The translations under genes were made by a program, and so were the position numbers. 58,292 bases of DNA from Candidatus Butyricimonas faecavium (lineage in GTDB: Bacteria; Bacteroidota; Bacteroidia; Bacteroidales; Marinifilaceae): contig CALUKD010000024.1 of the NCBI GenBank assembly GCA_944321125.1, forward strand, positions 1 through 58,292. Direction: 5' to 3'. The notes beneath the pieces were generated by a model that was not told where the DNA came from, searched no databases, and worked only from the letters and a program-made list of their open reading frames with translations. This document shows positions 38,266 through 42,081 of the stretch, piece by piece. Each line of letters begins with the position of its first letter. The first letter of the stretch is position 1.

Positions 38266-40044
38266 TCAAATTGCTTTTGTCTTATTTCGCAACCAAGCTC
38301 TTTCCTGTTCTTCAAGATAAGGAGATACTTCTTGATAAACCCGTTCGTTGTAAGCATTTAACCAATCAATTTCTTCTTTAGTTAAAAGTTTAATTAATAG
38401 GGCAGAAGTATCGAAATAACAGAGAGTTATTGTTTCAAATTGATAAAATTCACCAAACTCATTCACTGTTTTAGGCTGACATACGATCAAGTTCTCGTGG
38501 CGAATACCATGTAATCCTTCCCGATATAATCCCGGTTCGTTAGAAGTGACCATACCTGGTAATATTTCCTGATTTTTTAAATCCGGACGAATAGATTGCG
38601 GTCCTTCATGTACATTGAGAAAATAACCGACCCCATGTCCAGTTCCGTGTCCAAAATTTCGAAGATTCATGTATAATGGCAACCTCGCAACTATATCAAT
38701 ATTACATCCTTTAGATCCTTTGGGAAAATACAACATACTAAGATCAATCATACCCTTCAAAACAAGCGTGTAATCCTCTTTTTCCAATTCAGTCAATTCG
38801 CCCAATGGCATCGTGCGGGTAATATCTGTCGTACCGTGCATGTATTGGGCCCCGGAATCCACGAGATATAATCCTTTTGGATGTATTTCCGATTGTTGTT
38901 CCGGTGTAGCAGAATAATGTGGTAGAGCCGCATTAGAGCCGTAAGCAGAAATACACCCAAAACTATCCGACACGTATTCTTTATCTTGTGAACGAAACCA
39001 AGTCAATTGCTCTGCAGCTTCCAATTCTGTTACAGGTTGTTGTAATAACCTATTTTCCAGCCAATAATAAAATTTAGACAAAGCAACTCCATCTTTTCGG
39101 CAAGCCAACCTAAATCCTTCCAATTCTGTCGCATTTTTTACAGCTTTCAGCAAAGGGATAGGAGAATCGATTTCACGCACCTCAAATTTTTTCGCCAGAT
39201 AATTAAAAACAGCATAGTTGCACGTATTAGTGTCCACGAAGTATACGTTTTCTTTCTTTTGTTCATCCAAGAAAAGGAATACATGATGATAATCATGTAG
39301 TTCAATCCCGTCTGTCGCTAATTGCCGTGCTATTTCTTGAGAAATCTTATCCAATTTAATAAACAAATGGGCTTTGTCTTTTTCTACAACAGCGTAAGAT
39401 ATGGCAACCGGGTTATAGGCGATATCATTACAACGAATGTTGTATAACCAAGCAATTTCATCCAAACAACTGAATAGCATGGCGTCACCATGATTGTCTC
39501 GTATAAATTCACGAATTTTACCAATTCGTTCTCCCGCAGATTCCCCGACATATTTTGTTTTCAAGCGAATTATTTTCTCCATGGGAAGAGCCGGACGGTC
39601 AAACCACATTTCACCCAACAAATCGATTTGCTCTTGAACCGTTATATTTTTAGGACCTAACACGTTTTTCAAGTTGCGTACATCACTAACAGACATACAA
39701 AAGCCATCAATTCCTACTTTATTTCCAGATTCAAGTACTTCTGCCAACCATTGGGGGTAATCTATAGCCCCGGGAATGCGCAATTTATGGAGTTTTATTC
39801 CGGAACCAGCCAATTCTCTCTCTGCTTGGATAAAATAGCGGGTGTCAGTCCATAATCCTGCCTCGTTTTTCGTTACTACAACAGTTCCGTATGATCCTGT
39901 AAAACCGGAGATCCATTTTCTCTGTTGCCATGGAGCGGAAAGATATTCGCTATTATGAGGATCTGTTCCGGATATGATATAAGCCGCAATATTTTCTCGA
40001 TCCATAATGCGTCTTAATTCAATTAATTTCTCTGGTATATTCAT
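38266..40044 (-). CDS. pepP: Xaa-Pro aminopeptidase (aminopeptidase P family, M24B)
   Basis: This 592-residue cytosolic metallopeptidase removes N-terminal residues preceding proline. Its layout is the three-domain eukaryotic-like one: creatinase-like domain I (1-~130), a second creatinase-like domain (~140-300), the pita-bread catalytic domain (~310-530) and a short C-terminal domain. The five metal ligands lie in LVDSGAQY (Asp), GTTDITRT (Asp), HGTGHGVGY (His), TSNEPGLY (Glu) and QFETITL (Glu). Bacterial PepP is usually about 440 residues, so this is the long form common in Bacteroidota. Its promoter and upstream region contain the TTACATTTGTAA-type sites described below. Confidence 0.93.
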   Translation of the reverse strand: MNIPEKLIELRRIMDRENIAAYIISGTDPHNSEYLSAPWQQRKWISGFTGSYGTVVVTKNEAGLWTDTRYFIQAERELAGSGIKLHKLRIPGAIDYPQWLAEVLESGNKVGIDGFCMSVSDVRNLKNVLGPKNITVQEQIDLLGEMWFDRPALPMEKIIRLKTKYVGESAGERIGKIREFIRDNHGDAMLFSCLDEIAWLYNIRCNDIAYNPVAISYAVVEKDKAHLFIKLDKISQEIARQLATDGIELHDYHHVFLFLDEQKKENVYFVDTNTCNYAVFNYLAKKFEVREIDSPIPLLKAVKNATELEGFRLACRKDGVALSKFYYWLENRLLQQPVTELEAAEQLTWFRSQDKEYVSDSFGCISAYGSNAALPHYSATPEQQSEIHPKGLYLVDSGAQYMHGTTDITRTMPLGELTELEKEDYTLVLKGMIDLSMLYFPKGSKGCNIDIVARLPLYMNLRNFGHGTGHGVGYFLNVHEGPQSIRPDLKNQEILPGMVTSNEPGLYREGLHGIRHENLIVCQPKTVNEFGEFYQFETITLCYFDTSALLIKLLTKEEIDWLNAYNERVYQEVSPYLEEQERAWLRNKTKAI

Positions 40045-40063
40045 GACTTTATTTTTTATTTTT

Positions 40064-40094
40064 CAAATGTAGAGTTTTTGTTTAATATAACAAA
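40064..40094 (-). promoter_or_regulatory. promoter of the aminopeptidase P gene
   Basis: On the minus strand, TTTG (40091-40094), a 19-base spacer and TACATTTG (40064-40071) form a perfect Bacteroidota promoter ending 19 bases before the start codon. The -7 box itself lies in a 10/12 match to the operator palindrome. Confidence 0.6.
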
Positions 40095-40105
40095 ATAGGA
40101 GAAAA

Positions 40106-40117
40106 TTACATTTGTAA
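40106..40117. promoter_or_regulatory. operator-like palindrome, site 1
   Basis: Exact TTACATTTGTAA, just upstream of the pepP -33 box. It is one of six related sites in this gap. Confidence 0.55.
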
Positions 40118-40140
40118 ATCACGAAGATGGAGTTACCGTA

Positions 40141-40152
40141 CTACATTTGTAA
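40141..40152. promoter_or_regulatory. operator-like palindrome, site 2
   Basis: CTACATTTGTAA, 11/12 match, starting 35 bases after site 1. Confidence 0.5.
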
Positions 40153-40185
40153 CATGTTTAATTGTTAATAAAAGGGGAGAGGGGT

Positions 40186-40197
40186 GTACAAATGTAA
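40186..40197. promoter_or_regulatory. operator-like palindrome, site 3
   Basis: GTACAAATGTAA, 11/12 match in the opposite orientation. A degenerate copy (TTACAAGTGTCA) follows at 40201-40212. Confidence 0.45.
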
Positions 40198-40598
40198 TTA
40201 TTACAAGTGTCAGTTAATTCAACGTATCCCTTGGATTAACAGTTGTAAACATATAAACTTATATTATTGAATATCAGTAAATAAATTTATAGTATATGAT
40301 ATTTATATTTAATAATGATTTAACCATAATGATGAATTTTGAATATATTCACTGTTAATTAGATTTAAATTGTAATACTAATTCGTTGATTTTCTGTGTT
40401 TAATACATGTATATATAAAGTTTAAGTATAGATATTATTTTTCATCTCGTATGCGTGTAAATCACTGATTAATAGTAATTAAAACATCAAACAAAGTATG
40501 CGATGCAATAAAAGGAAATCAATACGATGAATCATATTGATAACAAGTATATTACAACCATAAAATCTAAATTGACAAATATCATCATGAGTCGTTAG
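40198..40598. other. A+T-rich gap between the two operator clusters
   Basis: About 400 bases with very low G+C and no open frame of useful length, no clear hairpin and no tRNA-like fold. Only scattered half-sites (TGTAA, TTACA) of the operator motif are seen. It may be a spacer that permits looping between the two clusters, which is inference. Confidence 0.5.
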
Positions 40599-40610
40599 TT
40601 ACATTTGTAA
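40599..40610. promoter_or_regulatory. operator-like palindrome, site 4
   Basis: Exact TTACATTTGTAA, 22 bases before site 5 (start to start, about two helical turns). Confidence 0.6.
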
Positions 40611-40620
40611 TTAATACACA

Positions 40621-40632
40621 TTACAAATGTAA
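40621..40632. promoter_or_regulatory. operator-like palindrome, site 5
   Basis: TTACAAATGTAA, the exact reverse complement of sites 1, 4 and 6. It lies directly upstream of the -33 box of the regulator promoter. Confidence 0.6.
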
Positions 40633-40633
40633 T

Positions 40634-40664
40634 TTTGATTTCTCGACACGAATAATTACATTTG
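40634..40664 (+). promoter_or_regulatory. promoter of the XRE regulator gene
   Basis: TTTG (40634-40637), a 19-base spacer and TACATTTG (40657-40664) form a perfect Bacteroidota promoter. The -7 box is embedded in operator site 6, so a bound repressor would block it. Transcription would start near 40670, which argues for translation from the ATG at 40695 rather than at 40671. Confidence 0.65.
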
Positions 40665-40667
40665 TAA
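40656..40667. promoter_or_regulatory. operator-like palindrome, site 6, overlapping the -7 box
   Basis: Exact TTACATTTGTAA covering the -7 element of the regulator promoter, 28 bases before the chosen start codon. The position is ideal for autorepression. Confidence 0.6.
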
Positions 40668-40694
40668 CTCATGATTTTACAAAATAACAGACCT

Positions 40695-41129
40695 ATGCAA
40701 GAACGTTTGAATCAAATTATCGAGAAAAAAGGATTGACTGCAACAAAATTTGCCGCCATGATAGGAGTAAATGCCTCTACAATTTCCCATATTCTTGCAG
40801 GCAGGAATAAACCTGGTTTTGATATTATCAATAATATAGCTAAAACATTTCCGGATCTCAATCTGACTTGGTTAATTACGGGAAACGGATCAATGGATAA
40901 TTCTCCTGTACAAAAAGAAAAAAGTTCGGTTATATCTGAACCAACATTATTTGACATGGAACCGACGAAACAACAGACTGCATCTGTTATTCCTGATAAA
41001 AATGCAGAATTAAAAAAAACTAGAGATCCGCTTGCTTCTGTAGGATCTTTCACGCAACAAACCAAAAAAATAAAACGGATTATATTATTTTTTGAAGATG
41101 GTAGTTTTGAAGACTATGAAAAAGAATAA
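40695..41129 (+). CDS. XRE-family helix-turn-helix transcriptional regulator
   Basis: This protein has 144 residues from the chosen start. The N-terminal Cro/CI-type HTH domain (about 1-62) begins MQERLNQIIEKKGLTATKFA and contains GVNASTISHILAGRNKPG, the recognition helix region, then TWLITGNGSM. A flexible linker follows. The C-terminus has a conserved short strand motif (KRIILFFEDGSFEDYE) seen in related Bacteroidales proteins. The ATG at 40671 adds eight residues, but the promoter would make that start nearly leaderless, and homologues as I recall them begin at this second Met. Upstream lie three exact operator-like palindromes, so autoregulation is likely. Target genes may include pepP. 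Confidence 0.85.
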   Translation: MQERLNQIIEKKGLTATKFAAMIGVNASTISHILAGRNKPGFDIINNIAKTFPDLNLTWLITGNGSMDNSPVQKEKSSVISEPTLFDMEPTKQQTASVIPDKNAELKKTRDPLASVGSFTQQTKKIKRIILFFEDGSFEDYEKE

Positions 41130-41166
41130 AGCTACATTGTAGTTTTGTTCAATGTAGCTTTTGTTT
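41128..41166. terminator. bidirectional terminator between the XRE gene and pyrD
   Basis: A perfect 12-bp stem (41128-41139 with 41150-41161; AAAGCTACATTG) has a 10-base loop and T-rich tails on both sides. It overlaps the end of the regulator gene. Confidence 0.8.
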
Positions 41167-41175
41167 TTCTATTTC

Positions 41176-42081
41176 TTAGATCAAGCCAATAATTTCTTTC
41201 ACTGACTTGAAACCGTTTTGGTCTAAATAATCGTTAATACCATCAATTACTTTTATCGTTACAGTCGGATCAATAAAGTTTGCCGTTCCGATCTGAATGG
41301 CTGAGGCTCCAGCCAATAGGAATTCGAGCGCATCATTAGCACAACTTATTCCTCCCAAACCGACCACAGGAATTTTCACAACTTGAGCAACTTGCCAAAC
41401 CATACGAAGTGCCACAGGTTTCACGCAAGGACCACTCAATCCACCTGTAATTGTGCTTAATACAGGTTTTCGAGTTTTTACATTGACAGCCATTCCCATC
41501 AACGTGTTGATGAGTGATACCGAATCTGCGCCAGCCCCTTCCACAGCCAAAGCGATTTCTTGTATGCTTGTAACATTAGGTGATAATTTGACCATTAGGT
41601 GTTTTTTGTAAACTTTCCGAACTTCCTTAACTACCTCCGATGCTGAAACACAACTCGTTCCGAAAGCCATACCACCTTCTTTTACGTTAGGACAGGAAAT
41701 ATTCAGTTCGATGGCCGGGATATGATCCAAAGTGTTTATTTTTTCTGCCGTGGCAACATAATCGGCAATAGTTGAACCGGATACATTCACTAGTATATTA
41801 CTATTTATGTCTTTTATCGTTGGGTAAATATGCTCGATGAAATAGTCTACACCTTTATTCTGCAATCCCACGGCATTCAGCATTCCAGAAGGAGTTTCGG
41901 CCATACGAGGGTAAGGGTTGCCTTCACGATGTTTTAACGTTGTACCTTTCACGATAAAACCACCCAAGCGTTCTAGATCAATAAAATCTTGAAATTCAGT
42001 TCCATAACCGAAAGTTCCGGATGCTGTTAACACGGGATTTTTCAAAGATAAACCGTTGATATTTATATTTAAATCTGCCAT
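41176..42081 (-). CDS. pyrD: dihydroorotate dehydrogenase B, catalytic subunit
   Basis: This 301-residue class 1B enzyme of pyrimidine synthesis oxidises dihydroorotate to orotate with FMN and passes electrons through PyrK to NAD+. Motifs: [23 protein letters not shown] (about 124-134; this loop carries the catalytic cysteine in class 1), VKLSPNV, and the FMN-phosphate segments [21 protein letters not shown]. The open frame extends upstream, but MADLNINI at 42081 fits homologues. It overlaps the end of pyrK by 13 bases, so the two subunits are translationally coupled. Confidence 0.94.

Follow-up and report, generated by a model that had tools for sequence, protein, structure and literature searches.

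In phage lambda, several operators lie at intervals over the promoter of the repressor gene, and distant clusters, OL and OR, cooperate. Phage repressors of the CI/Cro type (434, P22 c2, lambda CI; PDB 2or1, 2cro, 1adr) have the HTH fold in common with the XRE regulator of the stretch of 58,292 nucleotides analysed here (the window), as seen in Foldseek alignments over the HTH part with E values above 0.001. Like them, the window XRE has spaced operator-like sites over its own promoter and a distant cluster. In contrast to the phage proteins, it stands among housekeeping genes, and its C-terminal part consists of a linker and a beta-hairpin in which no peptidase domain was found. The C proteins of restriction-modification systems are autoregulators with paired operators, and two of these small HTH proteins, C.AhdI and C.Csp231I, are among the fold matches of XRE. 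However, no restriction-modification gene was among the neighbours examined in the window, and the distal cluster lies hundreds of base pairs away. Looping by LacI/GalR proteins and AraC shows helical phasing between distant operators, as do the XRE operator clusters of the Flavobacteriaceae. These belong to another protein family, and the phasing of XRE comes from natural variation rather than from constructs; furthermore, close operator pairs of XRE occur almost only at its own locus. For Lac loops, PMC1762422 gives two fitted in vivo helical repeats, 11.60 and 11.08 bp, which are near the periods of 10.7-11.4 bp obtained here for XRE clusters. No paper on this XRE regulator was found in the open PMC literature. 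Judged by title and the start of the abstract, none of the open PMC full texts found on Bacteroidetes, DNA looping and transcriptional regulators deals with it, and the exact 12-mer of its sites appeared in open PMC text only in three papers which, by title, concern a Clostridium, zebrafish and yeast.

The XRE gene (40695-41129, forward strand) belongs to the XRE/HTH_3 family, with scores above the cut-offs of the Pfam models HTH_19 and HTH_3 (PF12844, 39.0 bits, cut-off 30.2; PF01381, 37.1 bits, cut-off 23). In the AlphaFold model, computed for the monomer (mean pLDDT 80.6, pTM 0.50), the helices of the N-terminal HTH fall within residues 2-62, and a linker of low confidence connects the HTH to a C-terminal beta-hairpin (strands 129-132 and 138-141) that is modelled with confidence. 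This hairpin is conserved in the alignment; judging from the model, it could be an oligomer contact between proteins. A regulator of the LexA/CI type with an S24 peptidase was considered and rejected, because neither Pfam nor NCBIfam gave an S24 peptidase domain at E values up to 0.001. The nearest folds in Foldseek were phage repressors and small autoregulators, all aligned over the HTH part and none with an E value below 0.001.

Upstream of the XRE gene lies a gap of 650 bp with 24% GC, which extends from pepP to the conserved XRE start. The divergent neighbour pepP (38266-40044, reverse strand) encodes a PepP-like M24 aminopeptidase with matches to Pfam Peptidase_M24, Creatinase_N_2 and Peptidase_M24_C; the genes examined around XRE, namely pepP, pyrD, pyrK and uvrA, are housekeeping genes. 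The first-pass annotation had reported six operator-like palindromes in this gap, and all six were located where it had placed them. In the distal cluster an exact site is nearest to pepP (40106-40117, forward strand), followed by two sites with 11 of 12 matches (40141-40152, forward; 40186-40197, reverse). Two additional weak sites on the forward strand, TTACAAGTGTCA (40201-40212) and TAACAGTTGTAA (40237-40248), are conserved in part within the genus, and at the place aligned with 40141-40152 four of the five other species of the genus have TTACATTTGTAA. The cluster at the XRE promoter consists of three exact sites: O (40599-40610, forward), M (40621-40632, reverse), which lies 22 bp further on, and P (40656-40667, forward; the sixth palindrome), which begins 35 bp after the start of M. 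The main spacings are thus 35, 45, 22 and 35 bp. In the gap the pattern TTACANNTGTAA occurs four times exactly and eight times with at most one mismatch, whereas 3,000 dinucleotide shuffles of the gap gave at most one exact match and three with at most one mismatch, neither observed count being reached in any of them. The 12-mer, with one mismatch allowed, gave six matches compared with a mean of 1.05 in 100 window-wide dinucleotide shuffles, none of which reached six. The repetition of the palindromes is therefore real. The A+T-rich spacer between the clusters (40249-40598) is poorly conserved in sequence. An RNA element in this spacer was considered and rejected, as none of the Rfam families attained its gathering score over 39900-41300; one sub-threshold match was seen near 41097. 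Short conserved islands such as AAAGTTTAAGTA are present in the spacer among six species.

The promoter read earlier for the regulator gene proved right: a -33 box TTTG (40634-40637, forward strand) is separated by N19 from the -7 box TACATTTG (40657-40664), which lies inside site P. Site M is one base from the -33 box. Orthologue alignments place the conserved start at the ATG at 40695 (MQERL...) and not at 40671; hence 27 bp separate the end of site P from the start codon. At 40671, where the presumed transcription start lies, the open reading frame has its first in-frame ATG, and the orthologues begin at the equivalent of 40695. The pepP promoter has the same form, TTTG-N19-TACATTTG, on the reverse strand (40064-40094; TTTG 40094-40091, TACATTTG 40071-40064). 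Its -7 box matches the operator only in part, and the exact site at 40106 lies 11 bp upstream of its -33 box.

A search of 59 genomes gave an XRE protein match in 53. Among the 30 best-matching loci, 17 (the window included) have a divergent neighbour and the same array, the neighbour being pepP in 16 and another gene in L046. Site P was taken as the exact site nearest the start codon; in L042 alone it was identified through TACATTTG instead. P spans the -7 box in all 17 loci, with TT as its central bases throughout; because of the way L042 was located, 16 of them are free evidence. All 17 have site M 35 bp upstream of P (at least eight of ten specified bases). Site O follows 22 or 23 bp beyond M, the better fit being taken, in 16 of 17 (at least nine of ten bases) and is absent in L040. 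In 14 of the 17 loci a -33 box TTTG was found, with N19 or N20 between it and the -7 box. The palindromes are thus kept upstream of XRE orthologues in related species, where their absence would have spoken against operators. The centres of M and O vary; sites away from the promoter keep their outer bases, with free centres. With the centre fixed at P and free elsewhere, the outer palindrome and the promoter core are separate constraints that overlap at P.

These observations bear on the possibility that the motif is just the -7 element of the sigma factor and palindromic by chance. TAnnTTTG is the -7 consensus in PMC7366714 and PMC9723704, which makes TACATTTG a valid -7 box, as the first-pass annotation had cautioned in pointing out that the outer bases would stay unexplained. 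A single TTACATTTGTAA also occurs as a -7 box at the promoter of a ferritin-like gene, which we take to be Dps-like, in three relatives. At this promoter, however, the -7 core persists while the other six of the nine genes examined, each from a different genome, have different outer bases; outer bases kept at sites away from promoters point the same way. The exact 12-mer occurs only eight times in the genome of 3.85 Mb, four of them in the pepP/XRE gap, so that the genome-wide count proposed at the outset did not find it at a promoter-like frequency. Close exact pairs with a gap of 5-35 bp were found at 30 places in 15 of the 59 genomes, 29 of these at XRE, whereas the control pattern formed no close pair in the 59 genomes. 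A sigma element alone is therefore largely contradicted already, and we regard it as extremely improbable.

XRE relatives were found across the Bacteroidota. A search of the phylum gave at least 590 matches; 570 passed confirmation, and the best 80 of these were retained, three of which were dropped from the count of repeats because the upstream sequence was too short. In the remaining 77, TTACA-NN-TGTAA was the commonest inverted repeat upstream of XRE, being present at 59 loci compared with at most three in control regions and six in three simple shuffles. The next commonest repeats were mostly shifted readings of the same palindrome. Among the best 80 loci the neighbours of XRE vary and include pepP, an M14 peptidase (35 loci), QueA, a dicarboxylate symporter and codirectional genes. 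Since the neighbours differ and the sites stay, the sites go with XRE and not with pepP.

The recognition helix was compared in 50 loci of the genome set. The usual helix is present in 47, and 46 of these have a site with at most one mismatch within 300 bp; an exact site lies within this distance in 27 and is missing in 20. The three loci with another recognition helix have no exact site and one, one and no near ones, respectively. In two genomes of one genus (L059, L211), whose helix is changed to SYFCKGKR, no exact site lies within 300 bp upstream, and TTGACA/TGTCAA repeats stand upstream of XRE in place of the palindromes. The change of helix and operator in these two genomes is probably one event, and to judge from the sequences it is possibly a natural switch of operator specificity.

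Binding of the sites by another regulator, for example a BlaI/MecI-type protein, also has to be weighed, given that operators of that type have similar TACA/TGTA halves. Against it, the other neighbours of the sites change and XRE does not, and exact sites are missing together with the changed recognition helix in L059 and L211; we consider another regulator very unlikely. The presence of the sites at XRE whatever the neighbour, the shared promoter geometry and the 29 of 30 close pairs argue for the regulator's own operators, and the palindromes are very probably, as predicted from sequence, the landing sites of the adjacent XRE protein.

Autoregulation through the site over the -7 box had been proposed from the window, and it gains from the comparison: throughout the phylum the sites accompany the XRE gene, with geometry and outer bases conserved. 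That XRE regulates its own gene is, on these grounds, highly probable, and that it does so by repression is likely. XRE would bind TTACA-NN-TGTAA, presumably as a dimer; at P it would cover the -7 box and at M it would sit against the -33 box, so that abundant XRE would close its own promoter, a negative autoregulation suggested by the position of the sites. It is also conceivable that XRE both activates and represses its gene, with occupancy of M and O stimulating and P repressing. Lambda CI has such an activating role at PRM, and an array of constant spacing next to the -33 box would suit this arrangement. Yet M, one base from that box, would more probably block RNA polymerase than help it. 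The dual role is therefore rather unlikely, and autorepression is preferred.

Less clear from the window is whom the distal cluster serves. It might control the divergent gene (pepP here, the M14 peptidase gene in Flavobacteriaceae) independently, next to an autorepression without looping. The distal sites do adjoin the pepP and M14 genes, and of the best 80 loci none of the nine linked to QueA (L126, L127, L133, L139, L148, L150, L151, L161, L196) has a distal cluster, having at most single sites far upstream. In several flavobacterial loci, e. g. L130, L132 and L147, the outermost distal site TTACAAAGGTAA can be read on the other strand as a TAnnTTTG box for the M14 peptidase gene, by which both divergent promoters may be covered. 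However, in the same set a distal cluster (two sites within 60 bp) is present in 11 of 17 loci with a codirectional neighbour, compared with none in 100 shuffles, and in seven of ten with other divergent neighbours. Independent clusters would, moreover, not predict that the distance between them changes in helical steps, as described below. We therefore hold separate control of the neighbour without looping to be improbable, though less so than the dual role. Because distal clusters are found next to other neighbours too, it is probably XRE itself that they serve, and the simplest reading of the sequences is that the distal cluster strengthens XRE's own control. Additional control of pepP, as suggested earlier, is possible since the site at 40106 is only 11 bp from the pepP -33 box, whereas clusters where the neighbour is codirectional or not pepP weaken the case; effects on pepP would be a by-product or a second output.

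To relate the two clusters, the family of one flavobacterial locus was used, a set of 397 genomes in which an exact site upstream of TTACATTTGTAA was sought. Such a site lies 213-243 bp upstream in 139 genomes and 182-212 bp upstream in 33, whereas the control pattern gave no match in either range in these 397 Flavobacteriaceae-level genomes. The 100 two-site loci fetched, from 100 of the 121 genomes listed, all have an XRE match. Selection by exact sites 182-243 bp apart limits the range of the distances and not their phase. The pooled distances (144 matches in the 121 genomes listed) cluster at about 190, 202, 213, 224 and 235 bp and are nearly empty between. From 135 loci, 11 without a clear proximal or distal site were dropped, and four of the remaining 124 were left out for distances of 258, 258, 269 and 291 bp. 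With one equivalent distal site per locus, picked by rule and probably wrongly so in L156 and a few other loci, the best period was 10.7 bp with a vector strength of 0.78 (n=120).

Common descent of the spacers was taken into account in several ways. They are mostly dissimilar (median identity 0.55 in 600 pairs, 0.52 when shuffled). When each of 110 spacer clusters formed at 65% was represented by a single locus, the vector strength was 0.77, a value that none of 4,000 jittered sets reached. Grouping at 58% identity put 115 of 120 loci into one of only six groups, and 8,923 of 20,000 null sets were as high; it was thus uninformative, and stricter groupings were used afterwards. As jittering also breaks up the large class of 66 loci near 213 bp, the test was repeated without this commonest class. 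The other 54 loci gave a period of 10.8 bp and a strength of 0.73, with none of 5,000 smooth-envelope sets as high. Only two of the 120 distances fall in the troughs compared with 50 expected from a smooth envelope, although these troughs were picked with the data already in view. A quick tree requires at least 30 changes of step class. Among 48 independent differing pairs, the difference is 1-3 bp in 27, 7-14 bp in 16 and 21-25 bp in five; no pair falls at 4-6 or 15-20 bp, and these empty bins were noticed post hoc. In this weaker test, 15 of the 21 pairs that differ by at least 4 bp deviate by no more than 2.5 bp from a multiple of 10.7 (binomial p 0.024). The distance from promoter to ATG is nearly fixed at about 40 bp and thus cannot serve as a phase control. 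Within clusters, adjacent spacings in the best 80 of the 570 confirmed loci peak near 12, 24, 34-35 and 45 bp, and those of the window fit. Such a pattern would be expected of sites that are constrained to one face of the helix.

The helical steps in the cluster distance point to DNA looping, by which a second cluster some 200 to 550 bp upstream would raise occupancy of the promoter. A divergent M14 gene is present in 122 of the 124 loci of the phased set, and coupling of two divergent promoters is therefore an alternative cause of the phasing. In the family that shows it, we put looping at slightly better than an even chance. The looping suggested for the window fares less well there: the helical phasing speaks for it in Flavobacteriaceae, whereas within the window's own family, where the distance to the outermost site is 420-551 bp, the genera show no common phase (vector strength at 10.7 bp, 0.12 to 0.24). 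For the window's genome, the grounds for looping are thus the analogy and a gap that stays constant in one genus, and looping is less likely here than in the phased family. This gap is 649-652 bp in six species of the genus; three shorter gaps in these species are about as constant, and the others differ by up to about 180 bp.

Taken as a whole, the explanation that the palindromes are dedicated operators of the adjacent XRE, that XRE represses itself through them and that the distal cluster contributes by bridging through a loop has, by our estimate from sequence comparisons, a probability of about 0.78. A wider formulation would be a regulator found throughout the Bacteroidota, with operator clusters almost only at its own gene, in which two clusters on the same face close the promoter through a helically phased loop, i. 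e. a self-limiting switch whose looped architecture is kept while its neighbours are exchanged. We offer it tentatively, at a little under even odds. If it is true, looping by a Bacteroidota regulator could be tested directly, as the spacing of the clusters varies stepwise among flavobacterial species, by helical turns. The operator motif also provides an annotation handle for a gene otherwise labelled just as XRE family.

A regulon in trans was considered and rejected for the window's genome: TTACANNTGTAA occurs at 14 places, four of them here, and the ten outside the locus compare with eight for the reversed control pattern. For a regulator widespread in the phylum, with no clear target beyond its own locus here, this raises the question of what it senses. 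In six relatives TTACANNTGTAA was found at five to nine places outside the locus compared with two to nine for controls, and exceeded the control in four. In two relatives the outside single sites exceeded the control at nine versus two and six versus four, and further targets are thus possible there. The outside places of these seven genomes make up 48 loci. For 17 of these, another genome, usually that of a close species, has a corresponding place next to a gene of at least 68% identity. Genes at these shared loci include matches to the EamA, FecR, phage integrase and ferritin-like Pfam models. The one close pair away from XRE in the 59 genomes (G037:C6:76264-76296, L201) stands beside an alpha-L-fucosidase gene. 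Upstream of an EamA-like transporter gene a single TTACATATGTAA is conserved in three species of the genus (L061, L088, L096), which by its sequence is possibly a weak target in trans.
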